64,000 bases of DNA. It comes from an uncultured Desulfobulbus sp. Lineage in GTDB: Bacteria > Desulfobacterota > Desulfobulbia > Desulfobulbales > Desulfobulbaceae. The notes below the pieces were generated by a model. That model worked only from the letters and a program-made list of their open reading frames with translations. It was not told the origin of the DNA and made no database searches. Both the position numbers and the translations under genes were made by a program. Every line of letters starts with the position of its first letter. The stretch's first letter is position 1. Positions 18,311-54,257 of this stretch are shown here, in pieces. The stretch covers positions 2,431,501 through 2,495,500 of the forward strand of contig NZ_OY762276.1 of the NCBI RefSeq assembly GCF_963665445.1, read 5' to 3'.

Positions 18311-18573
18311 AACTCACCTCCTAAGGGGAAGATGAAACGTTCCATCCGTGTATTGCTGCCAATTTCAAGGCGTTAAAACAATATTCTCCCTAGAATATAT
18401 GGTCGTAAATTTAGCTTTGCGCCCATTCGCCGACAACATATAAATTTTATTGGAACAGCACGAGAACATAGATAACAAATAAATGAAATTATTGAAAAAA
18501 TGAATATAGAAAAATTGAATAATGAATGGGTAATCTGCATATCTAAATTTATCAAAAAGAAAGAGCACTTGAG
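18311..18573. other. A/T-rich upstream region of the dehydrogenase operon
   Basis: This gap separates the operon's first gene from the 3' border of the group II intron array. It should hold the operon promoter, but I could not pick a convincing -35/-10 pair. No coding pattern was seen. Confidence 0.45.
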
Positions 18574-18683
18574 GTAGAGTAGGAGGCAGATAGACAGTCA
18601 CCGGACCAGGACTTTGCCTGACGCCTCGCCGCACGCGGCTACTACGTGTCAACCGGCCGGGTTGTTTCTCAACCTCCCCTCAT

Positions 18684-18720
18684 CAAACCGTGCTTGCGAT
18701 TTTCCCGCACACGGCTTTCC
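18684..18720 (-). ncRNA. Group II intron domain V, intron D
   Basis: A stem-loop AAAGCCGTGTGCGG / CGCAAGCACGGTTT with a GAAAA-type loop lies just after the reverse transcriptase stop. It has the 34-nt layout of a domain V catalytic hairpin and is followed by a domain VI-like region. Confidence 0.75.
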
Positions 18721-18728
18721 GATGTTCT

Positions 18729-19262
18729 TCACTGCAAGGCATGCACTTTCTTCCAACCCGCTGTGGTCGGCACTTTGTACAGGCCGTACTTCTCGTACAG
18801 TGTCCTGCTTGGAAACTTGATGTACCCTGCATACCTGTCCCGGACCTTATGCCGCTTCCGCAGGTGCGTGATCATTCGTTGCTCCAGATGGTGACGTATC
18901 CGGCCCAACGACTGGCTGCAATTACGGTAGTGGAAATATCCGACCCAACCTCGTACGGCGGCGTTGACTTCTTTCACCACCCACTCAAAGGCAATGATTG
19001 TCCGCTCGCGTTTCGTCAACTCGGTTATCTGATCCTTGATCTTTTGACAGGATTTCTTCGAGGGTTGCACATGGGGATAATATATCCCCGTTTTCCGCCC
19101 TTTGCCCATCTTGATCGTAAATCCGAGAAAGCCAAACTCCCCTTCAAACGCGTTGACGATCTTCGTCTTGTTCGCATTTAAGGTCAGTTCCAACCGCGAA
19201 AGTATCTGCTGAAGCACGGCCATTACCCTGGCCGAATGGTTTCTTCGGCAGAGCAGAACAAG
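18729..19262 (-). pseudogene. Group II intron reverse transcriptase/maturase, C-terminal fragment (intron D)
   Basis: The reading frame becomes reverse-transcriptase-like at 'LVLLCRRN', just after where the YADD active site should be. It continues through 'NKTKIVNAFEGEFGFLGFT' (thumb) and a maturase (GIIM) domain 'WVGYFHYRN' to a natural stop. The first two thirds of the protein are missing; upstream lies the 3' end of intron C. The frame opens farther upstream (to 19445), but that part is translated intron RNA structure. Confidence 0.85.
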
Positions 19263-19299
19263 TCGAGTAGCCCAAGGGAACCACCCCCTCAGGCTCTCA

Positions 19300-19335
19300 C
19301 AGAACCGGACGTGAACGTCTCCGCTCATCCGGCTC
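19300..19335 (-). ncRNA. Group II intron domain V, intron C
   Basis: GAGCCGGATGAGCGG pairs with CGTCCGGTTCTG around a short loop in typical domain V form. The region after it (GAGAGCCTGAGGGGG...) fits domain VI and leads to the CTAC(TCGAC) 3' border. Confidence 0.8.
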
Positions 19336-19338
19336 CTA

Positions 19339-20159
19339 TCATCCAGCCGCTGCGTGTGCGTGGAGCAGTCTCCAGTGGGCAAACAAATATGGCTGTTTTT
19401 GCGTAATACGGTCCAACCAGTGTTGCGCCCTCCTCCGATGTCCACGCAAACGTTTATATTTCCTTGTTGCCCACATCACCAATCGGCGATCCAGGCATTT
19501 CAGAGTTGGGTACATTGCAGATTTATAGTTACGACCATAGTAGGTTATCCACCCCAGAACGATCGGATTGAACATCCTGGCCATATCTTCCAGACTCTTG
19601 TCACTACGCTCTGGCCAGTGCCATTGCCGTGAGGTCTGGCGAATTGCTTTGGCGGTCTTATCGCTGATCGCAGGGGAGAAGTTGATAAAATACTTTCCCC
19701 ACTTATTCTTTGACCGCCTGGGTTGAAATGTATACCCAAGGAAATCAAATTTCGTACAGGGATATCCCTTCCTACGATCATCGTCTTTACAATAAACAAT
19801 CTTCGTCTTCTCAGGATGTAACTCCAGTCCGACATCCCACATACGTGCACTCAGCTTTTCTTTCAGCCTCTCCGCCTGGGTTTGGCTTTGACAGTGGCAC
19901 ACTGCATCATCGGCATATCTTTCAAACGGAATTGAGGGGTTTTCACGTTCCATCCATTTGTCGAATGCGTAATGCAGAAAGAGGTTAGCCAGCAACGGGC
20001 TGACCACGCCTCCTTGCGGAGTCCCTTTCTTCGGATACAAAAGTGTCTCATCTGTCATGAGTATCGGGGCCTTCAGCCACCTCTCCACATACAGAAGGAT
20101 CCACTTCTGATCCGTATGCCTGCGCACTGCTTTCATCATGAGATCATGATCGATATTGT
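19339..20159 (-). pseudogene. Group II intron reverse transcriptase/maturase, 5'-truncated (intron C)
   Basis: RT homology starts at 'NIDHDLMMKAV' (motif 2) and runs intact through 'GTPQGGVVSPLLANLF', the catalytic 'RYADDAV', 'KFDFLGYTF', and the maturase domain 'GWITYYGRNYKSAMYPTL' to a normal end at 19339. The N-terminal ~110 residues are absent and are replaced by the 3' end of intron B. The frame reads (G)AC AAT ATC GAT at the junction, which would restore 'FFDNIDHD'. No functional protein is expected. Confidence 0.85.
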
Positions 20160-20207
20160 GGTGGGTAGAGATGGGCCTTGAAGTTACCCTCTTGCCCCCC
20201 CCTCGCA

Positions 20208-20240
20208 GAACCCGCCGTGCGGAATTCCCGCAACGGGCTC
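20208..20240 (-). ncRNA. Group II intron domain V, probably intron B
   Basis: GAGCCCGTTGCGG pairs with CCGCACGGCGGGTTC in domain V form, followed by a G-run and a short domain VI-like stretch ending at ATCTCTAC near 20165. It lies inside an open frame, but that reading is incidental. Confidence 0.75.
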
Positions 20241-20306
20241 CCCAGGCTACACTCGTTGACCGTTCGTCAAATCGACGGATGTAATATTGACACCGCGTAG
20301 GGCAGT

Positions 20307-21299
20307 TCAAACCAGGAGCAACTCTTGAGGTAGCTCCAATACATTCGATGCCTCTGACTGCGCCGTCGCAGGCGTTTCCGGTTTGTTGCCGGTTCTCTCC
20401 ATGTCAGCCCGCGCGAAGCGCCCAAAACGCATCAACCGTGTCTTTTCCTCTGCCAATTCCAGCCCGAATTTCCCGAATCGTTTGGGCAAGACTCTTGCGA
20501 ATCCTTCCGCATCACACCTGTATTGGAAATTTACCACGAAGTCGTCAGCAAACCGCGTCAGGTATACCTCTCCGGTGCACCAGGGCTTGACCTTCTTTGC
20601 AAACCAAAGATCAAGCACGTAGTGCAGGTAGATATTTGCCAGGATTGGGCTGATCGGCCCACCCTGTGGCGACCCTTCTTCGGTCCGCGATACTACTCCA
20701 CCCGACATGAAACCCGCGTTCAGCCATTTACCAATCAGCCGCAATATCACGGGGTCTGCAATTCGATGAGCTACCATCTTCAGCAGCCAGTCATGCTGGA
20801 TATGGTTAAAATATCCACGGATGTCGGCCTCGAACAAGTATCCTACCTTCTTCGTCACGATCACCGCACGTAATGCTTTGAGGGCGCCGTGAGGATTTCG
20901 TCCAGGCCGGAATCCATACGAGAATTCCAGGAAATTCGTCTCGAACACCGATTCCAGTATCCGTGCTACAGCCCTCTGCAGCAGGCGGTCTTCGACCGTC
21001 GGAATACCCAACGGTCTCGTACCTGCCTTGCCCGGACCTTTCGGAATCTCCACACGGCGGACCGGTGGAGCCCTATAGATTCCTTGCTTCAAGCGTTCAC
21101 ACAACCCCCGGACCCGTTCATCCAAGTCCTGCTCAAACTCCTTCGTCGTCTCACCATCCACGCCACTCGCACCACGTCGATTTATCTGCCGCCAGGTTTC
21201 CTTCAGAAACTCCGGTGTGAGCAAATGGGCCAACGAGGTGAATTGCAGCTTTGGATTTGACTTTGCTTTATCAACGATCTGATCCAGTTGCGGTGACAT
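20307..21299 (-). pseudogene. Group II intron reverse transcriptase, C-terminally truncated (intron B)
   Basis: From Met at 21299 the product resembles group II RTs: 'GASGVDGETTKEF', 'RPLGIPTVEDRLLQRAV', 'YGFRPGRNPHGALKAL', 'FEADIRGYFNHI', 'GSPQGGPISPILANIYL', 'RFADDFVV'. Homology stops after 'TGNKPET'; the last ~20 residues are unrelated and the maturase domain is missing. The ~500 nt between the intron 5' end at 21809 and this start fit domain I. An internal deletion removed the C-terminal coding region while leaving domain V. Confidence 0.85.
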
Positions 21300-21809
21300 C
21301 CGTATCCTACCTCTGAGTGCAGGGAATGTTTCCCCAGACCAGCTACTCAACCTGCCCCGCCGCTTCCCCATGTACGCGGCTTTCCCGCGCTCCGAGTACT
21401 ACCAGCGAGTCCGACTTCCACCGTTGCATTTGCCTTCCTCAGGATGGTCCATTCGGTCGGCATACTCAGTCACATACAGCCACACCAAGACGACGATGGA
21501 TCTCCCAGGTTCCATGACGCTTCCGTTTCTGTCCGTGCCGTACTCTCAGACCCCGCCGGAGTCTCCAGCGACCATCGCCCGTGGCGGTCGCCTACTATTG
21601 CCTTCCAGGTTTTCGCCCCTGTCTGCCTCCGGATGTGTAACGAGGCTCAATCGCTTCACTTGCGTTACGGCCCAGACATCGCTCTGTCTACGCTTAACTC
21701 ATGTCGTTACCTTCATGAGCCCAAGACTCGATTCCCGGTGGGGCGGCTCATTCCCCTTTCCGGGGCGGGAATCTCACCCGCTGAAAGCGCCGGGCTTATC
21801 CTGGCGCAC

Positions 21810-22350
21810 CGAAGAAGCCCTTAATGTCGGCCTCGACAATATGGTTGATCGGCCTGCGCTCCATTGTCAGGCTCAGAGCCCTGAGAGCGTCGTGGCAGCT
21901 TCGACCAGGACGAAATCCGTATGAATCTCCTATAAAATCATTCTCATAGATTGATTCAAGAATGCGCACAAGACCAGCTTGAACCAGCTTGTCTTCAAAA
22001 CATGGAATCCCCAAAGGACGCAGCTTGGCGCTGCCAGGCTTGGAAATGTATTTCCGCCTGACAGCTTGCGGAATATACGCCATCCGGTGCAGCCTCCCTA
22101 CCAGATCGACAAGGTTGCTCTCCAGATTCTCGGCATATTCAGCTTTGGTCATTTCATCGATGCCGGCAGCTGCATCCTTGCGCAGCCGCTGAAAGCATCC
22201 CCGCAGCAACTCCTCGTTCATCAAGTGATACAAGCTGGTGAACTGGAAACCAGGAGTCTTGCGGGCTTTCTCTGCTATGCGTTGTAATTTTGTTGCCACT
22301 GGTGCCCCGCTGCTGTGAACGGACAGTGTTTCCTCACTTCGCGCTACCAA
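21810..22350 (-). pseudogene. Group II intron reverse transcriptase, N-terminal fragment (intron A)
   Basis: 'FQFTSLYHLMNEELL', 'KDAAAGIDEMTKAEY', 'RPLGIPCFEDKLVQAGL' and 'YGFRPGRSCHDALRAL' mark the N-terminal RT motifs. The frame breaks at 'EADIKGFF', exactly where intron B begins, and hits a stop inside B at 21796. The real start may be the GTG near 22299. The 3' part of this intron is not in the window. Confidence 0.85.
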
Positions 22351-23846
22351 TATGTAGCCTCCTTTCCTCCAGCCGCATTACCGGCCTTCACAGGTACTAC
22401 AAGGCTATCCGACTCCCTGCGTCTTGTTTGCCTTCCTCCCTTTTCAGTTGTCCGGCATACTCTCAATACTCCGAAAGAGACACAGGGTCTCCCGGGTTGC
22501 CGTGTACTCCTAATGTCAGACATGCCATGGTCTCCGCCCCCGGGAAGCAGCCAGCTGCTTGCCATTAGCGGCGCTGACTGTGTTGACTTCCATCTGTTAA
22601 ACAATGTCGTCCTTCCGACTAGGAACATTACGGGGCTCAATCCCTTCAACCTTTCGGCTTACGGCCTGCCTGCTCGCTATCCTACGCTTAAAGCTTCATG
22701 TTACCATGAAGCCTCCAAGGACTTGCTACCCGGTGGTTGGCCAGCCTTCCGGGGCGGGATTCACACCCGCTGAAATACACGACCTTGCCCGGCCGCACTT
22801 AACATTTAACCATGAACTGGCACACTTCTTGTGGTTTAACAGGGGCTGACTGATATGTTCTAATCGAGGTTGGTTTGGTGGTGCGTAAGTATCTCATCTT
22901 GTGAAGGGAAAAATGATGTGGGAAAGTGCCTGAGTGAGTAAAGTATACTGGAATTTTGTTACTCAAAAAAAATCAGCCTTTGTCCTCTCCGGGGTAAAGC
23001 CTATACCTAGGGGAGAAGAATGGCTCAAATCAATCAGCAGGCTTTCGCAGCCCGTATCAAAGATTATATCAACAATCCTTCCTGCTTTGAGCAAGATTTT
23101 TTCGATTCGTCACTTCATACAGTCACCTTAAGGGAGCAGTCTGAACCTCACCAGGGTGAGAAAGGGTGCTTGCTCGATCTCCAAGGCCTCTGTTTTGAAG
23201 AGTATATTGAGCTTGTCATGATCCTTCTTGAACATGGCTATTACTCGCTGCAAAAACCGGCCAATCTCTCGAGCTATTGCACTGCTATGGCTCAAGCGGT
23301 GCAAAGTTTTGCGCAGCCCTTGGCTGTCAATGATCCAGCCAGTTTCATGGAACCCCATTTTTTATTTCACGGTTTGGAAAAAACAACCATTGCTGAAAGC
23401 GTGGCACAGTGTGAGGAGAATGGCCGGATTATACATGAAACCCTCAAAATTCGGGAAAGCTATATGGCTAAATATGGGGGCAAGACCTTACTCGGCAATG
23501 GTCTACAAATGATGATGGAGAATGGGTTTGCTGAGGATAACTTGGGGATTTGCTGTTTTATTACCAAGGAAGATGAGCCCAATCCCCATGGTGCCGGGAA
23601 TAGCTATGCCGCTAAGGTTTCTTTTTTTCTTGATACTTCGCGGATGGAGATCACAATCATCACCATACAGGGGCAGCACGTAATCAAAGCACTAAAAAAG
23701 CGGAGCCGGGATTATGCCCGCCTTGGGGCTCGGCTCAAAAGCGATCCACGTAGCTATCTCCTCAAACAAGTTTGTGAAGTCGCCAGGTTGGCGGGTTATA
23801 AACGGGTACGTGTCATTAGGCCGGAATCGCATCCCATGGCCATTGA

Positions 23847-25793
23847 CCTGGGTTTACGGGTTGTGGAACACGCCTAGCCGCAAAGCCTTGCCTGGTGGGC
23901 GTTGGCGGGTGGTGCCGATTTTGGCGTGTGCCCACAGGTATTGCACTTATTTTTCAAGGGGCTTAATGCCAAAAATTTTGGTCGGTAGCGGAGTTACAAG
24001 TTTTTTCATCAGTTCACGACAGGCTTCCGGCGCTGAATTAATCTGAAAAAAACTGTGCTGGTCGTTTTGAAACTCAGTGGCTTGAAGTTTGGCTAAGTTG
24101 CGCCGTATCCGGGACCAGGGCTCCCCGCACTCACGTTCCGCAACGCGCTCTATGAGCAGCGCCAGAACACAGATTTTTACATGCGTTTCGATGCGCCGTG
24201 CGGCCCAATGATACATAGGCATCATTTTGATCTGGGTACGCTTGAGGGAGCGGAAACACCGCTCGATAACCAAAAGTCCTTTGTAGCCAAGGGCCGCATC
24301 TTCAAGGCTGATGGTGTCATCGTTGGTTTCCAGCACCCACTTGCCGTCGTAGCGTTTGGCCTCGGTGATGGCTGCTCGGTCCAGGCGAATTTTACCGGCC
24401 TCGGTTGTTGTCAGGTACCGCTTGTATCGTTTTGAGGCCAGCAGTTCGACTGCCCATTGGGTAGAAGCATTACGGTCCTTATGGTTGGCAAGCTCCTCTT
24501 CGAGCATGCCGACGATCTCTTCTCGATGTATTCGTTGCCGCTCTGCTTCCTTTGGGTTGAAGCAGAGGATGTATCGCCGCCGTCGCTCGCCATCGCCGAT
24601 AACAACCTCCTTGGCTTGCAGGCTGTCGGTGAAGGTGGTGAAGCGACCTGGTTGCGAGAGGACCTCTTTCTTGATTTCGGCCACCGATGCCATGCGGGTG
24701 GCGAGCAGGTATTTGCCACAGGCCCGTGCAAGTTCTTCTCGGTTAGCGGAGGAGTTCATACCCGAGTCGGCCACGAACAGCGCTCGACCGAGGTTCCAGC
24801 CTCGCAGGTCCTTTCTGATGCGTTTGATCGTGGATACATCCGCCGTGTTACCGGGAAAAATCCAGCTTTTCACCGGCAGCCCTTCCCGGGTAACCGCCAG
24901 GGCGACCACGATTTGCGGCGTCCACGTGCCCTCCTTGGAGTGGCCGTACTGACGCAGACCGTCGTTTTCATCAGCCTCGTCCTCGTAATCAATTGAGAAC
25001 GAAGCCGTCGTGGTGTCGTAAAAAATCAGATCGACCGAGAGGTTGAACAGATTAGCGGTCTGGAAAAAGACAGCCTCCTCCACCGCATCAATATGCTTGT
25101 GGAGAAAGTCCATGGCCTCATACATCTGACGCAGTTTCAGGCCTTGGCATTTGGGCAGATGGACCTGCTCCAGCCACCGGTCCCAAACCCCGAGCTTGGA
25201 TTCCGGTGCGCAGAGACGATTCGCCGTCATGGCCAGCAAGGCCTGATCGTAGGCAACGGCATACTTGCCTTTGTCCAGCAGAGACCGCAGCGCTTTGCCG
25301 ATACCCAACCGCTCCCAAAGGGTTTCGATGACCAGCACTGTGCCGAGTTCCACTGTGCGCAGGATCTCAAGATCGTCGGGCAGTCCACCACCTTGAGCCT
25401 CCTCGCTACCAGCGGGGTCAACAATGGTTACCCCGCAGACTCTGGCTATAGATCGGGCGAGCCGCACCAAGGCCTCACGGTCGAGCTGATCGGCGCGTCC
25501 GAAGCTGTGGATGATGCGGGCAACGGTGGAGTTGGTCTCCGGATTGCGCTCGTTGTGGGCGAGCTGGAGATACTCGGTAACGGTGCCGTTCTTGTTTTTT
25601 CGTTTCGTGGTTCGCAGATACATGACTGCCCACCACGTTAGCGTGTTAATTCGCGTATTTCAACTGAAATATCGCTTCGCGTGTGCCCACAGATTTTGAG
25701 ATTTTCACCACGCGTAAAATTTTATCACATTGAAATTGCGTGATATTTTCTCCGGCACTGCACTAAAATGTGCCTACAACCCGCAAACATAAG
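23847..25793 (-). mobile_element. IS1634-family insertion sequence, copy 1
   Basis: 1947 bp with related ends: one end reads inward CCTGGGTTTACGGGTTGT and the other CTTATGTTTGCGGGTTGT. It is flanked by perfect ATTGA direct repeats (23842-23846 and 25794-25798). A copy of the same length lies at 52050-53996 in opposite orientation. Confidence 0.92.
23947..25623 (-). CDS. IS1634-family DDE transposase, copy 1
   Basis: 558 aa, full length. RNase H-like core motifs: 'LIFYDTTTASFSIDYED', 'GHSKEGTWTPQIVVALAV', 'FVADSGMNSSANREEL', and a C-terminal 'ERCFRSLKRTQIKMMPMYHW', as in IS1634 members of the IS4 superfamily. The ends of the gene are identical by eye to copy 2, but a central patch carries many synonymous differences. 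It probably remains active. Confidence 0.93.
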   Translation of the reverse strand: MYLRTTKRKNKNGTVTEYLQLAHNERNPETNSTVARIIHSFGRADQLDREALVRLARSIARVCGVTIVDPAGSEEAQGGGLPDDLEILRTVELGTVLVIETLWERLGIGKALRSLLDKGKYAVAYDQALLAMTANRLCAPESKLGVWDRWLEQVHLPKCQGLKLRQMYEAMDFLHKHIDAVEEAVFFQTANLFNLSVDLIFYDTTTASFSIDYEDEADENDGLRQYGHSKEGTWTPQIVVALAVTREGLPVKSWIFPGNTADVSTIKRIRKDLRGWNLGRALFVADSGMNSSANREELARACGKYLLATRMASVAEIKKEVLSQPGRFTTFTDSLQAKEVVIGDGERRRRYILCFNPKEAERQRIHREEIVGMLEEELANHKDRNASTQWAVELLASKRYKRYLTTTEAGKIRLDRAAITEAKRYDGKWVLETNDDTISLEDAALGYKGLLVIERCFRSLKRTQIKMMPMYHWAARRIETHVKICVLALLIERVAERECGEPWSRIRRNLAKLQATEFQNDQHSFFQINSAPEACRELMKKLVTPLPTKIFGIKPLEK

Positions 25794-41344: not shown

Positions 41345-43233
41345 TGATGGCGTCGTAAAAAGTATTTCTATTTAACTGGTTAATTTTCCAGGATTAACGT
41401 CTGGATTACCATTGTCATTTTTCTCGCATTCTGTTAATATATTTGCGTAATATCAATTAAATGCGAGACGAGATAATGTTTCACGTGAAAAACCACAAAC
41501 AGCTCAACATCCTCGACCCATGGGCCCATTTGGGACCCAAACGACGCGCCCTCCTGGACAACTCATGGGCAGGTCTTTTTCAGAAGCATATCCTGCCTGA
41601 ACTCCCGGTGGAGTCCCTGCGCCACCATTATCATGACTACAATGGCCGACCCACCAAGGAACTGTATGCCATGATGGGGGTGATGATCCTCCAGCAAATG
41701 CATGATTGTACTGATCAGGAGGCGGTTGAGCAGTTCTGTTTCAATATCCAGTGGCACTATGCCCTCAACATCACCTCGTGCTCCGACGCGGCTGTATACC
41801 TCAGCCACAAAACGCTCTGGACCATGCGCGATCACCTGGCCTCGGATGCGAGCTATGCCGAGATATTTGATGCCTCCCTGGGCATCCTGGCCAAGTTGCT
41901 CAAGGCCGATATGAATAAGCAGCGCATGGACTCGGTGCATGTCAAATCCAACATGCGCAATCTGGGTCGTATCGGGTTGTTCACCAAAACGATCAAGAAG
42001 TTCCTCGTCAACCTGAAGCGACACCACCGGGAACACTTTGATCAACTCGACACGGAGTTGACCCAACGGTATCTGAGCAAATCGCAGGCGTCTTTGTTCG
42101 CCATGGTCAAACCCACCGAGTCCACCCGCACCCTTGATCAGTTGGCTGCGGATGTGCTGCTCTTGACCGAGCGTTTTGCCGCCGTGGACGAGGTCAGCAC
42201 CATGCAGAGCTTCAAACTGCTGAGCCGGTTGTTCGCCGAACAGTGTGTCATCGAGGAAGACACCACCGCCGATTCTGGCAAGAAAGCCGTGGCCCGGCCG
42301 AACAAGGAGGTGCCCTCCGATTCACTGCAAAACCCCTCCGATGCGGATGCCGGCTACAGCAGTCATAAAGGCCAAGGGTATCAGGTGCAGTTGGTGGAAA
42401 ACTACACCACCACCGATGAGCGTGGACCATCCCTGATCACGCAGGTGGCGGTGGAATCCGCGGATCAGCATGATGCCAATGCCCTCCTGCCCGCCTTGGC
42501 CCAACTGGAGCAGAAGGCGATGCTGCCGCAGCAAATGCTGGCCGATTCCCTCTACGGCAGCGACAGCAATTGTGAAACGGCCCTGCAGGAGCATCAGGTG
42601 GCAGTCATCTCCCCGGTCATGCCGGGCAATCAGAAGAAGTTCAACCTGACCGAATTCACCCTTGATGACCAGGGCAAGGTTCTCACCTGCCCCCAGGTCA
42701 CGGCACCCGACACGGTGAAGAAATCAAAATCCGGCTACAGCGCACTCTTCCCCATCGCTGTTTGTCAGAACTGCTCCTCGTTTGACCGGTGCCCCGTCTC
42801 CATCGGAAAAAAGGGCTATTACTACCGCTACACCGACAAGGATATCCGCCTGGCCCGACGGCGACAGGAAGAAGAAAGCCCGGAGTTCAGGGAGAAGTAC
42901 CGGTACCGGGCCGGCGTTGAGGCGACCATGTCGGAATTCGACCGGCGCACCGGTGTCAAACATCTCCGGGTTCGTGGCATGAAAGCAGTGCGGTTTGCCG
43001 CCTTCATGAAGGCCATCGGCTTGAACATATTGCGGGCCAGCAGGCACTGGGGCGAGAAAACCAGCCCAATGACGTCCTTTTACAGCCTATTTTTTTTCTT
43101 TTTGGCTTTCCAAACATATTTCAAAGAACTTTTTCGGGAAGACTTCTCAACAAGAACTCACGAAGGCACAAACTTTCAACCAGTCGCTTCTTTTCGAGCG
43201 GATTGGGCGGTTTGACTTTTTACGAGGTCATCA
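41345..43233 (+). mobile_element. IS1182-type insertion sequence, copy 1
   Basis: 1889 bp. Left end TGATGGCGTCGTAAAAAGT, right end read inward TGATGACCTCGTAAAAAGT. TATT lies on both sides (ATATTT if the ends are placed one base inward). A nearly identical copy is at 45131-47019 in the same orientation. Confidence 0.9.
41461..43215 (+). CDS. IS1182-family transposase, copy 1
   Basis: 584 aa. 'YHDYNGRPTKELYAMMGVMILQ' style N-terminus ('GRPTKELYAMMGVMILQQM'), DDE-core elements 'KQRMDSVHVKSNM' and 'MLADSLYGSDSN', a Cys-rich insert ('CQNCSSFDRCPV'), and the C-terminal 'YRAGVEATMSEFDRRTGVKH' fit IS1182. It differs from copy 2 at only a few C-terminal residues. Confidence 0.93.
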   Translation: MRDEIMFHVKNHKQLNILDPWAHLGPKRRALLDNSWAGLFQKHILPELPVESLRHHYHDYNGRPTKELYAMMGVMILQQMHDCTDQEAVEQFCFNIQWHYALNITSCSDAAVYLSHKTLWTMRDHLASDASYAEIFDASLGILAKLLKADMNKQRMDSVHVKSNMRNLGRIGLFTKTIKKFLVNLKRHHREHFDQLDTELTQRYLSKSQASLFAMVKPTESTRTLDQLAADVLLLTERFAAVDEVSTMQSFKLLSRLFAEQCVIEEDTTADSGKKAVARPNKEVPSDSLQNPSDADAGYSSHKGQGYQVQLVENYTTTDERGPSLITQVAVESADQHDANALLPALAQLEQKAMLPQQMLADSLYGSDSNCETALQEHQVAVISPVMPGNQKKFNLTEFTLDDQGKVLTCPQVTAPDTVKKSKSGYSALFPIAVCQNCSSFDRCPVSIGKKGYYYRYTDKDIRLARRRQEEESPEFREKYRYRAGVEATMSEFDRRTGVKHLRVRGMKAVRFAAFMKAIGLNILRASRHWGEKTSPMTSFYSLFFFFLAFQTYFKELFREDFSTRTHEGTNFQPVASFRADWAV

Positions 43234-43325
43234 TATTTAACACTGTAAAAAATAATCTATTTAAAATCAGCAAATTAGAATTTTATAAAATCTCCAGTGG
43301 CACTACATTTGTTTTTTTTGAGGCA

Positions 43326-45130: not shown

Positions 45131-47019
45131 TGATGGCGTCGTAAAAAGTATTTCTATTTAACTGGTTAATTTTCCAGGATTAACGTCTGGATTACCATTG
45201 TCATTTTTCTCGCATTCTGTTAATATATTTGCGTAATATCAATTAAATGCGAGACGAGATAATGTTTCACGTGAAAAACCACAAACAGCTCAACATCCTC
45301 GACCCATGGGCCCATTTGGGACCCAAACGACGCGCCCTCCTGGACAACTCATGGGCAGGTCTTTTTCAGAAGCATATCCTGCCTGAACTCCCGGTGGAGT
45401 CCCTGCGCCACCATTATCATGACTACAATGGCCGACCCACCAAGGAACTGTATGCCATGATGGGGGTGATGATCCTCCAGCAAATGCATGATTGTACTGA
45501 TCAGGAGGCGGTTGAGCAGTTCTGTTTCAATATCCAGTGGCACTATGCCCTCAACATCACCTCGTGCTCCGACGCGGCTGTATACCTCAGCCACAAAACG
45601 CTCTGGACCATGCGCGATCACCTGGCCTCGGATGCGAGCTATGCCGAGATATTTGATGCCTCCCTGGGCATCCTGGCCAAGTTGCTCAAGGCCGATATGA
45701 ATAAGCAGCGCATGGACTCGGTGCATGTCAAATCCAACATGCGCAATCTGGGTCGTATCGGGTTGTTCACCAAAACGATCAAGAAGTTCCTCGTCAACCT
45801 GAAGCGACACCACCGGGAACACTTTGATCAACTCGACACGGAGTTGACCCAACGGTATCTGAGCAAATCGCAGGCGTCTTTGTTCGCCATGGTCAAACCC
45901 ACCGAGTCCACCCGCACCCTTGATCAGTTGGCTGCGGATGTGCTGCTCTTGACCGAGCGTTTTGCCGCCGTGGACGAGGTCAGCACCATGCAGAGCTTCA
46001 AACTGCTGAGCCGGTTGTTCGCCGAACAGTGTGTCATCGAGGAAGACACCACCGCCGATTCTGGCAAGAAAGCCGTGGCCCGGCCGAACAAGGAGGTGCC
46101 CTCCGATTCACTGCAAAACCCCTCCGATGCGGATGCCGGCTACAGCAGTCATAAAGGCCAAGGGTATCAGGTGCAGTTGGTGGAAAACTACACCACCACC
46201 GATGAGCGTGGACCATCCCTGATCACGCAGGTGGCGGTGGAATCCGCGGATCAGCATGATGCCAATGCCCTCCTGCCCGCCTTGGCCCAACTGGAGCAGA
46301 AGGCGATGCTGCCGCAGCAAATGCTGGCCGATTCCCTCTACGGCAGCGACAGCAATTGTGAAACGGCCCTGCAGGAGCATCAGGTGGCAGTCATCTCCCC
46401 GGTCATGCCGGGCAATCAGAAGAAGTTCAACCTGACCGAATTCACCCTTGATGACCAGGGCAAGGTTCTCACCTGCCCCCAGGTCACGGCACCCGACACG
46501 GTGAAGAAATCAAAATCCGGCTACAGCGCACTCTTCCCCATCGCTGTTTGTCAGAACTGCTCCTCGTTTGACCGGTGCCCCGTCTCCATCGGAAAAAAGG
46601 GCTATTACTACCGCTACACCGACAAGGATATCCGCCTGGCCCGACGGCGACAGGAAGAAGAAAGCCCGGAGTTCAGGGAGAAGTACCGGTACCGGGCCGG
46701 CGTTGAGGCGACCATGTCGGAATTCGACCGGCGCACCGGTGTCAAACATCTCCGGGTTCGTGGCATGAAAGCAGTGCGGTTTGCCGCCTTCATGAAGGCC
46801 ATCGGCTTGAACATATTGCGGGCCAGCAGGCACTGGGGCGTGAAAACCAGCCCAATGACGTCCTTTTACAGCCTATTTTTTTTCTCTTTGGCTTTCCAAG
46901 CATATTTCAAAGAACTTTTTCGGGAAGACTTCTCAACAAGAACTCACGAAGGCACAAACTTTCAACCAGTCGCTTCTTTTCGAGCGAATTGGGCGGTTTG
47001 ACTTTTTACGAGGTCATCA
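45131..47019 (+). mobile_element. IS1182-type insertion sequence, copy 2
   Basis: 1889 bp with the same ends as copy 1, flanked by TGAAG on both sides (45126-45130, 47020-47024). It entered just before the start of the frameshifted IS1634-like gene. 47025-47363 is A/T-rich and shows no gene. Confidence 0.9.
45247..47001 (+). CDS. IS1182-family transposase, copy 2
   Basis: 584 aa, nearly identical to copy 1; the few changes (Glu to Val, Phe to Ser, Thr to Ala, Asp to Asn) lie in the last ~70 residues. The core motifs and Cys-rich insert are intact. The near identity points to recent transposition. Confidence 0.93.
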   Translation: MRDEIMFHVKNHKQLNILDPWAHLGPKRRALLDNSWAGLFQKHILPELPVESLRHHYHDYNGRPTKELYAMMGVMILQQMHDCTDQEAVEQFCFNIQWHYALNITSCSDAAVYLSHKTLWTMRDHLASDASYAEIFDASLGILAKLLKADMNKQRMDSVHVKSNMRNLGRIGLFTKTIKKFLVNLKRHHREHFDQLDTELTQRYLSKSQASLFAMVKPTESTRTLDQLAADVLLLTERFAAVDEVSTMQSFKLLSRLFAEQCVIEEDTTADSGKKAVARPNKEVPSDSLQNPSDADAGYSSHKGQGYQVQLVENYTTTDERGPSLITQVAVESADQHDANALLPALAQLEQKAMLPQQMLADSLYGSDSNCETALQEHQVAVISPVMPGNQKKFNLTEFTLDDQGKVLTCPQVTAPDTVKKSKSGYSALFPIAVCQNCSSFDRCPVSIGKKGYYYRYTDKDIRLARRRQEEESPEFREKYRYRAGVEATMSEFDRRTGVKHLRVRGMKAVRFAAFMKAIGLNILRASRHWGVKTSPMTSFYSLFFFSLAFQAYFKELFREDFSTRTHEGTNFQPVASFRANWAV

Positions 47020-52049: not shown

Positions 52050-53996
52050 CTTATGTTTGCGGGTTGTAGGCACATTTTAGTGCAGTGCCGGAGAAAATAT
52101 CACGCAATTTCAATGTGATAAAATTTTACGCGTGGTGAAAATCTCAAAATCTGTGGGCACACGCGAAGCGATATTTCAGTTGAAATACGCGAATTAACAC
52201 GCTAACGTGGTGGGCAGTCATGTATCTGCGAACCACGAAACGAAAAAACAAGAACGGCACCGTTACCGAGTATCTCCAGCTCGCCCACAACGAGCGCAAT
52301 CCGGAGACCAACTCCACCGTTGCCCGCATCATCCACAGCTTCGGACGCGCCGATCAGCTCGACCGTGAGGCCTTGGTGCGGCTCGCCCGATCTATAGCCA
52401 GAGTCTGCGGGGTAACCATTGTTGACCCCGCTGGTAGCGAGGAGGCTCAAGGTGGTGGACTGCCCGACGATCTTGAGATCCTGCGCACAGTGGAACTCGG
52501 CACAGTGCTGGTCATCGAAACCCTTTGGGAGCGGTTGGGTATCGGCAAAGCGCTGCGGTCTCTGCTGGACAAAGGCAAGTATGCCGTTGCCTATGACCAG
52601 GCCCTGCTGGCCATGACCGCCAATCGTCTCTGCGCACCGGAATCCAAACTCGGTGTTTGGGATCGGTGGCTGGAGCAGGTCCATCTGCCCAAATGCCAAG
52701 GCCTGAAACTGCGGCAGATGTACGAGGCGATGGATTTCCTCCACAAGCATATCGACGCGGTAGAGGAAGCAGTCTTTTTTCAGACCGCCAACTTGTTCAA
52801 CCTCTCGGTTGATCTGATCTTTTACGATACGACGACGGCTTCATTCTCCATTGATTACGAGGACGAGGCCGATGAAAACGACGGTCTGCGTCAGTACGGC
52901 CACTCCAAGGAGGGCACGTGGACGCCGCAAATCGTGGTCGCCCTGGCGGTTACCCGGGAAGGGCTGCCGGTGAAAAGCTGGATTTTTCCCGGTAACACGG
53001 CGGATGTATCCACGATCAAACGCATCAGAAAGGACCTACGAGGCTGGAACCTCGGTCGAGCGCTGTTCGTGGCCGACTCGGGTATGAATTCCTCCGCTAA
53101 CCGGGAAGAGCTTGCACGGGCCTGTGGCAAATACCTGCTGGCCCCCCGCATGGCGACGGTTGCCGAAATCAAGAAAGAGGTCCTGTCCCAACCCGGTCGT
53201 TTCACCACCTTCACCGACAACCTGCAAGCCAAGGAGGTTGTTATCGGCGATGGCGAGCGACGGCGGCGATACATCCTCTGCTTCAACCCAAAGGAAGCAG
53301 AGCGGCAACGAATACATCGAGAAGAGATCGTCGGCATGCTCGAAGAGGAGCTTGCCAACCATAAGGACCGTAATGCTTCTACCCAATGGGCAGTCGAACT
53401 GCTGGCCTCAAAACGATACAAGCGGTACCTGACAACAACCGAGGCCGGTAAAATTCGCCTGGACCGAGCAGCCATCACCGAGGCCAAACGCTACGACGGC
53501 AAGTGGGTGCTGGAAACCAACGATGACACCATCAGCCTTGAAGATGCGGCCCTTGGCTACAAAGGACTTTTGGTTATCGAGCGGTGTTTCCGCTCCCTCA
53601 AGCGTACCCAGATCAAAATGATGCCTATGTATCATTGGGCCGCACGGCGCATCGAAACGCATGTAAAAATCTGTGTTCTGGCGCTGCTCATAGAGCGCGT
53701 TGCGGAACGTGAGTGCGGGGAGCCCTGGTCCCGGATACGGCGCAACTTAGCCAAACTTCAAGCCACTGAGTTTCAAAACGACCAGCACAGTTTTTTTCAG
53801 ATTAATTCAGCGCCGGAAGCCTGTCGTGAACTGATGAAAAAACTTGTAACTCCGCTACCGACCAAAATTTTTGGCATTAAGCCCCTTGAAAAATAAGTGC
53901 AATACCTGTGGGCACACGCCAAAATCGGCACCACCCGCCAACGCCCACCAGGCAAGGCTTTGCGGCTAGGCGTGTTCCACAACCCGTAAACCCAGG
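52050..53996 (+). mobile_element. IS1634-family insertion sequence, copy 2
   Basis: 1947 bp, the same ends as copy 1 in opposite orientation, flanked by TTAAG (52045-52049 and 53997-54001). Confidence 0.92.
52220..53896 (+). CDS. IS1634-family DDE transposase, copy 2
   Basis: 558 aa with the same core motifs as copy 1. Only three or four amino-acid changes are visible ('LLAPRMATV' for 'LLATRMASV', Asn for Ser in 'TFTDNLQ'), yet the DNA of the middle third (about 52550-53250) has many silent differences. The remaining sequence is identical by eye. Confidence 0.93.
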   Translation: MYLRTTKRKNKNGTVTEYLQLAHNERNPETNSTVARIIHSFGRADQLDREALVRLARSIARVCGVTIVDPAGSEEAQGGGLPDDLEILRTVELGTVLVIETLWERLGIGKALRSLLDKGKYAVAYDQALLAMTANRLCAPESKLGVWDRWLEQVHLPKCQGLKLRQMYEAMDFLHKHIDAVEEAVFFQTANLFNLSVDLIFYDTTTASFSIDYEDEADENDGLRQYGHSKEGTWTPQIVVALAVTREGLPVKSWIFPGNTADVSTIKRIRKDLRGWNLGRALFVADSGMNSSANREELARACGKYLLAPRMATVAEIKKEVLSQPGRFTTFTDNLQAKEVVIGDGERRRRYILCFNPKEAERQRIHREEIVGMLEEELANHKDRNASTQWAVELLASKRYKRYLTTTEAGKIRLDRAAITEAKRYDGKWVLETNDDTISLEDAALGYKGLLVIERCFRSLKRTQIKMMPMYHWAARRIETHVKICVLALLIERVAERECGEPWSRIRRNLAKLQATEFQNDQHSFFQINSAPEACRELMKKLVTPLPTKIFGIKPLEK

Positions 53997-54257
53997 TTAA
54001 GATGGATACCGGCAGTCTCAATCTGCTCTACGCTGGCAAGACTTGAGATTCTTCCTGATTATCCTTGATGGAGTGAGTCAAAATTCAAATCAGTCATAAC
54101 CTGCAGAGAGAGCTTGATTCGAAATTAAAAAAAATAGTGCGTCACCTAATTCCGAGAACGGTTCCTTCTTTTCGTAGTGTGAGATTTTTCTCGGGTGAGC
54201 GGTGGTCAAACTTCTCGCAGCTGTTTCTTGACTGTTCATTCATTTTCCCTGTTCGGT

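Follow-up and report, generated by a model that had tools for sequence, protein, structure and literature searches.

The window analysed here, a 64,000-nucleotide stretch (C1:2431501-2495500) of the 5.08-Mb one-contig genome of an uncultured Desulfobulbus sp., harbours an array of four group II intron pieces, designated A, B, C and D, which lie end to end on the minus strand at 18573-22798. We consider it probable that this array arose as introns retrohomed again and again into the reverse transcriptase (RT) genes carried by other group II introns, the repeated copies then undergoing homologous recombination with one another. The exact joins, the lineages of the pieces, the covariation of exon-binding sites (EBS) with intron-binding sites (IBS) and the reopened reading frames of the hosts were read directly from the sequences; that the introns splice and move, and through which recombination events and in what order the array formed, we infer. 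In the proposed course of events, introns of the C type would have entered both D and an A-lineage intron (E, described below) after the YADD motif of the RT, whilst B, which is of another lineage, would have entered A and C at the GFF-D codon, and recombination between copies of B would have joined the 5' half of A, B and the 3' half of C. In intact nested copies the inner intron would splice out and restore the RT of its host, so that an intron of the C family could be maintained and spread further once a new RT gene arrives nearby; repeated copies would recombine and leave fused halves behind.

Composition and joins of the array

Rfam searches of window 18400-22900 placed 5' domains (RF02005) on the minus strand at 22763-22528 (A) and 21774-21541 (B), and domains V-VI (RF00029) at 20242-20165 (B; 38.6 bits, slightly below the 40-bit gathering score), 19337-19262 (C; 61.2 bits) and 18719-18574 (D; 50.9 bits). 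Matches to the group II RT/maturase family TIGR04416 covered positions 3-134 in A, 3-254 in B, 136-352 in C and 219-353 in D; every one of these, like that of E, is partial, and B alone among the pieces keeps both ribozyme ends (Table 1). These matches bore out the original prediction, made from the DNA letters alone, of four fused group II introns on one strand with two 5' ends and three domain V hairpins. No inner intron lies between both halves of one outer intron in the window, as it would in a twintron, and judged by its sequence the array is a fused remnant, its outer pieces, A and D, coming from separate lineages.

Table 1. Features of the intron array, in window coordinates.
Feature	Position	Strand	Basis or remark
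5' exon of A	22799..22824	-	plus strand reads FNHELAH
Intron A, 5' half: start GTGCGGCC, domains I-IV in part, RT N-terminal half to EADIKGFF	21810..22798	-	RF02005, TIGR04416 3-134
IBS1 of B within the RT gene of A, TCTTCG, 5/6 pairs	21810..21815	-	EBS1 pairing
Intron B, both ends kept, RT cut by a 266-nt deletion	20160..21809	-	RF02005 and RF00029; 3' join set by L062
EBS1 of B, CGAAAA, intron nt 195-200	21610..21615	-	covariation column, 15 introns
Intron C, 3' half: RT from (D)NIDHD, domains V-VI, end CTACTCGAC	19262..20159	-	L062 96.8%/696 nt, RF00029
Intron D, 3' half: RT from codon after YADD, domains V-VI	18573..19261	-	L148 86% over 19259-18573, RF00029

The RT of A breaks off after EADIKGFF, with A ending GGCTTCTTCG, at the same codon as that of the join between B and C. 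A contig filed under Anaerolineaceae (L062), which belongs to a metagenome-assembled genome (MAG) of unsure host name, contains the same C, its RT being uninterrupted (GATATCAAGGGATTCTTTGACAATATCGATCATGAT). The C of the window is 96.8% identical to it over 696 nt, and because this alignment starts at ACAATATC (20159), the 3' join of B was placed inside the Asp codon of GFF-D; relative to the intact copy, the C half starts exactly between ...GATTCTTTG and ACAATATC. The predicted coincidence of the break in A with the restart of C at (D)NIDHD, with B between them, was thus recovered. B begins with GTGCGCC at 21809, and may have a slightly extended 3' end, since its last bases, CCACC, lie past the end of its Rfam match (20165) and are shared with a third copy of B. 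C terminates in ...CTACTCGAC at 19262, as its relatives do, and D resumes in the codon after YADD, also as predicted, where the intact relatives L148 and L149 read YADDIVLLCRR and YADDIVILCRR. The alignment of D with L148 is unbroken down to 18573, which ruled out the 3' end of D as a remnant of A. Since two of the joins share a homologous codon, the third falls in the codon that follows YADD and the EBS1 pairing is concordant, the placement of the joins is beyond chance on the sequences compared.

A, C and D have different closest relatives and so do not represent a single RT lineage, the outcome that would have spoken against the prediction. Over 161 aa, A shares 81-88% identity with L060, L056, L053, L038 and L039, whilst C and D are 96% and 83% identical in protein to L062 and L148, respectively, and the intact C has a different N-terminal half from A. 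Relatives of B with long matches in the same order are 42-49% identical, and the plasmid records best matching its RT are 46.7-49% identical among the 25 matches listed. Three A-lineage introns from two genomes of the same order (L053, L056 and L060) are interrupted after YADD by a C-type 5' end; the contigs of G063 and G165 end inside their full twintrons.

A second array is located 2 Mb away on the plus strand (C1:462274 to ~465550) and comprises B and the 3' half of C, then E, and is preceded by the 3' side of what is by eye a relE-like gene, this 5' flank ending in GAATTATTCG. E, the RT piece of this array (463 kb), shares 71-77% identity with L055, L038, L041 and L039, and because each of these four matches both A and E, A and E are two halves of one lineage; that E would prove to be the 3' half of A's own lineage had not been anticipated. 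The entry of C lies after YADD in both D and E. The two B-C copies differ at eight positions, all in window 19416-19354, and are otherwise identical over B and C, and the outer neighbours of the arrays diverge precisely at the ends of introns, as would fit recombination between repeated copies. The eight differences span 63 bp with identity on either side and resemble a small conversion patch, within which (window 19354-19416) the 463-kb copy has a one-base insertion. The third copy of B (C1:474625-475451; L008:3625-4451) is 5'-truncated, retains the 266 nt missing from the other two, and has a 3' flank that is non-RT-coding by eye.

The EBS1 column was set by covariation over 15 related introns against the last six bases of their 5' exons, with a mean of 5.8/6 pairs and 3.93 for the next best column; this superseded plain complementarity, which had given several candidates for the EBS1 of B. 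At this column, CGAAAA of B forms 5/6 pairs with the A exon TTCTTCG, in keeping with the expectation that B could pair with the end of A. By hand, it also forms 5/6 pairs with the exon in C (one of them G.U) and with that of the 463-kb array, the mismatch falling at the same position in all three exons. For A, all six EBS1 positions pair with its own 5' exon, suggesting that its original 5' flank is retained.

A DNA search at the order level (257 genomes) retrieved one near relative of B, in G196, with 95% identity over 190 nt. This intron (L054, G196:C378) lies in another RT gene at SYGFR, directly after TACGGGTTTCG, and is internally deleted and fused to the RT of its host. No confirmed relative of B was obtained from a scan of viral contigs. 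The original prediction had also proposed twintron formation followed by recombination between copies of B sitting at GFF-D in both A and C; the use of RT genes as targets stood, whilst the recombination step is a proposal, with no intact A-B-A or C-B-C arrangement found in the searches made for relatives of B. The flanks exchanged between the two arrays would fit a loss of copies through recombination, as would the hybrid flanks of L068 (4060 and 5890), where a C-family intron lies between a TTTGGAAATA-type 5' exon and an RT 3' exon in phase, as if flanks had been swapped there too; no pair of states before and after such a loss came to light.

The C family and its guides

C rather than B proved to be the widespread RT-homing intron, which had not been foreseen. 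The C-family set consisted of the best 80 of 215 confirmed relatives of the RT of C, picked by protein similarity and not by context, and includes near-duplicates (Paraglaciecola L063, L064, L066 and L074; L127 and L128; L118 and L120). The 5' end could be located in 52 of the 80 loci, and in 36 of these the exon ends with two Asp codons and one base (a DD site), 32 of them reading [YF]xDD. The 36 comprise 27 YADD, three YMDD, one FMDD and one FTDD, and four with another or a masked first residue (L070, L075, L090 and L130). By record title, DD-site hosts include cultured Pseudomonadota, Desulfobacterota, Bacillota and one Planctomycetes strain, along with MAGs of several more phyla and one Methanophagales MAG, the titles of MAGs being possibly wrong.

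The 3' exons were compared with a profile built from RTs other than these exons (E<0.01), the junction being predicted after the first base of a codon. Of the 71 3' exons that could be tested, 34 matched an RT, the phase being as predicted in 32 and different in two; no match was obtained with the 71 reverse complements or with 56 downstream control pieces. A testable 3' exon was available for 31 of the 36 DD sites, with an in-phase match in 22. When the flanks of these 31 loci were joined, the median number of open codons was 247 upstream and 182 downstream, versus 13.5 in the two wrong phases, and 19 of the 31 had at least 100 open codons upstream and at least 60 downstream, hence the RT frame of the host is reopened. 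Both halves of one RT surround a C-family intron in, for example, L078 and L095. In a Rhodothermales MAG (L138:3041-8302 and L140:3041-8329), C-family introns lie beside pieces of another RT, with two tandem copies in L138 before the host RT resumes, and these are possibly further arrays of the same kind. On plasmids of Bradyrhizobium elkanii and Sulfobacillus acidophilus (L199:1531-4656 and L201:1320-4613), the nested RT is annotated as separate genes (RT, RT and maturase domain), and insertion into RT active-site codons would explain some of the RT genes that are annotated in pieces. Interruptions of C-family RTs in L133, L137 and L074 were discarded as further cases, as the breaks lie elsewhere and the starts of the inserts are, by eye, unlike these introns.

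The 5' half of C is absent from the window, and its guide was read from relatives only. The EBS1 alignment comprised 58 rows, 10 of which were gapped at the column and dropped (among them L075, the TTTGGAAATA-type sites and the two introns of the window's genome that lack an open reading frame (ORF)), leaving 48. Over these 48 rows the EBS1 column scored 5.56/6, the next column 4.21. All six positions pair in 30 of the 39 DD-site rows (35 loci and four archaeal) and five in the other nine, and EBS1 reads NGTCGT in 37 of the 39. In their exons the third bases of the Asp-Asp codons occur in all four combinations (TC 17, TT 11, CC 6, CT 5). Six of the nine other rows pair 6/6, two pair at three positions and one at none. 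EBS2, whose column was located by scanning exon offsets, pairs 5/5 in 32 of 40 DD-site rows, at four positions in six and at three in two; amongst 17 other rows, two pair at five positions, nine at four, four at three, one at two and one at one. At Ala sites (n=34) EBS2 reads GCGTA in 33 and GCATA in one, whilst at Met sites (YMDD/FMDD) it reads ATGTA in all four, which are three Paraglaciecola copies and one distant Nitrospinaceae MAG. When exons were shuffled among introns in 10,000 trials, the observed EBS1 sum was reached in none for all rows and in one for the other rows, and the observed EBS2 sum in none for all rows, DD-site rows and other rows alike.

EBS2 (GCGUA) pairs with UAYGC, which stands for Tyr and the first two bases of Ala, and EBS1 (NGUCGU) with AYGAYN, which stands for both Asp codons and one base beyond. 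A G thus faces the pyrimidine third base of Tyr and of both Asp codons, and the third base of Ala falls in the unpaired gap, hence a synonymous change in the host would leave the site intact. Against the RT gene of its own intron, at 77 C-family loci, AGTCGT pairs 5/6 in 76 and 6/6 in one, since the base after the intron's own YADD is not T, whereas T follows the two Asp codons in 28 of 39 target exons. This self-avoidance may reflect selection or shared descent.

On balance we lean towards regarding this family of bacterial and archaeal group II introns as a specialised parasite of RT genes. Its two guides would match Tyr-x-Asp-Asp codons through wobble at synonymous positions, would skip the third base of Ala and would have changed along with the target in evolution, with GCGUA at YADD and AUGUA at YMDD; the RT of the intron itself would be spared by the base after YADD (not T in 76 of 77 loci); nesting would be its normal life, and arrays its recombined debris. 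The original idea that introns use the RT-coding sequence of other introns as target sites is well supported for C, by sites, guide and frames, and is supported for B by its joins. An intron aimed at RT active-site codons would have possible targets in many other retroelements and would be hard to escape by synonymous change; if true, this would constitute a concrete case of parasitism among ribozymes and offer a testable RNA guide shaped by protein-coding degeneracy.

In a quick RT tree of 85 rows, with 21 of its 74 inner branches starred and several long end branches, the YxDD label required 7 changes versus 13.0 when shuffled. C falls in a starred set of 13 rows, of which 10 are YxDD and three unassigned, its own label having been taken from its 3' joins. 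The genome of the window also encodes two complete ORF-less C-like introns of ~0.6 kb on the minus strand (L030, C1:3965083-3965707; L031, C1:5062744-5063375), both matching RF01999 and RF00029, whose sites end TTGGAAAAG and TTGGAAGAA and are not YADD.

Alternative origins of the array

A 2-Mb inversion through inverted B-C repeats could have split one A-lineage intron into the A half in the window and the E half at 463 kb. A and E are indeed of one lineage, and the two arrays are found on opposite strands, with B and C almost identical between them, so that undoing such an inversion would reunite the halves around B-C; however, the outer flanks of A and E form no visible single interrupted gene (judged partly by eye), and the sister genomes G055 and G034 lack synteny spanning the sites, leaving this a possible though rather unlikely origin. 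The order A-B-C could also have arisen from a single insertion of B into C and a deletion running from the short conserved GFF stretch of A to that of C, these two being alike over a few bases at the join (GGCTTCTTCG versus GGATTCTTTG). We find this improbable, as the sequence of A runs up to the first base of B, which would confine the crossover to the last few bases, and TTNTTCG recurs in a third 5' flank of B, at 463 kb.

The ~2.4 kb identical repeat could mislead an assembler into joining identical intron copies wrongly, yet the genome is a single contig, a misjoin within B-C could swap outer flanks but not create the exact joins of B to C and of C to D, and the C-type entry after YADD recurs in other genomes; an assembly artefact is hence very improbable. 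We give the least credence to a chance accumulation of broken introns in a decaying region, with joins at RT motifs only incidentally. All four RTs are broken and other remnants exist in the genome, including the 5' end of an A-like intron (L029, C1:2130695-2130781; 80% over 87 nt), which lies close to four tRNA genes and has lost a large internal part; but the joins coincide with a single homologous codon and with the one following YADD, EBS1 pairs at the site, and the C family recurs at the same codon elsewhere.

Several findings weigh against repeated retrohoming into RT genes as the origin of the array, and against the YxDD rule on which it draws. No intact B was found in a GFF-D site in the searches made, so the B step rests on two half-sites, and one of the six EBS1 positions of B is mismatched. 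Conservation of EBS1 is partly due to shared descent. Nine of the 31 testable DD-site 3' exons gave no match to the RT profile, several of which (L075, L093 and L112) match the RT of D by tblastn, and L108, probably a look-alike site, is almost without an open frame. Sixteen of the 52 located sites are other sequences, including the near-match FAGD in L097, and one subgroup of the family uses TTTGGAAATA. More distant relatives in 12 plasmid regions (among 40 of 313 records listed) lie at YADD in two cases, both with GCGTA in the expected stretch and one with GTCGT, the remaining ten being at other or unresolved sites. The notion that every C-family intron targets YADD was accordingly rejected.

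Other features were noted around the arrays. The 5' exon of A reads FNHELAH on the plus strand, a zinc-protease-like motif named by eye, and 25 nt of it (window 22800-22824) recur at C1:2560759-2560783. A 285-aa ORF without a Pfam match at E 0.001 adjoins the array (window 23020-23877). A repeat of ~0.66 kb occurs at window 23842-24500 and 53343-54000 and also in L030, its first copy overlapping a 558-aa ORF at 23947-25623 that is transposase-like by eye. Repeats of ~0.9 kb (window 42325-43239 and 46111-47019) are 99-100% identical both to sequence just downstream of E at 463 kb and to a stretch of L008.

Relation to known nested introns

All four C-family copies examined in two archaeal genomes, G639, which we take to be Methanosarcina acetivorans, and G432, presumably M. 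mazei, lie at [YF]ADD and one base, and a further archaeal match was found in G505; the archaeal arrays hence belong to the same family as C. According to a review, up to five introns are nested in M. acetivorans through repeated homing into other group II introns, and this nesting is balanced by deletions through homologous recombination (PMC4424553, citing Dai & Zimmerly 2003). The present array resembles those of Methanosarcina in the insertion of introns into the RT ORFs of other group II introns, here C after YADD and B at GFF-D, and differs in being bacterial and in the presence of a second lineage, B, at another RT motif. Nested, recombining arrays are therefore already known, and what is described here is the tolerance of the guide for synonymous codons and its YMDD variant; in the literature, as partially covered, no description was found of a YADD homing site, of a codon-tolerant guide or of a spread in bacteria.

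The TeI3/TeI4 twintrons of Thermosynechococcus elongatus, in which one group II intron sits inside the ORF region of another, likewise represent proliferation with a mobile element as the target, though the inner intron is ORF-less there and its site lies between two start codons belonging to the outer ORF (PMC2882425). In our case RT active-site codons form the site, and an RT is encoded by the inner intron itself. For a group II twintron of Trichodesmium, whose host gene is not an RT, sequential splicing of the nested introns occurs in vivo, which indicates that such nesting is tolerable, and bacterial twintrons are called rare in that report (PMC4649490); the homing proposed for the C family would, if true, give a reason why nested introns in bacteria may exceed that reported frequency.

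Plasmid ltrA introns of Sinorhizobium and relatives are among the best matches listed to the RT of B, and A and B match RF02005. We take these plasmid-borne introns to be of class D and RmInt1-like. The single nearer relative of B among the searched genomes, in G196, differs from them in lying within an RT gene, at SYGFR.

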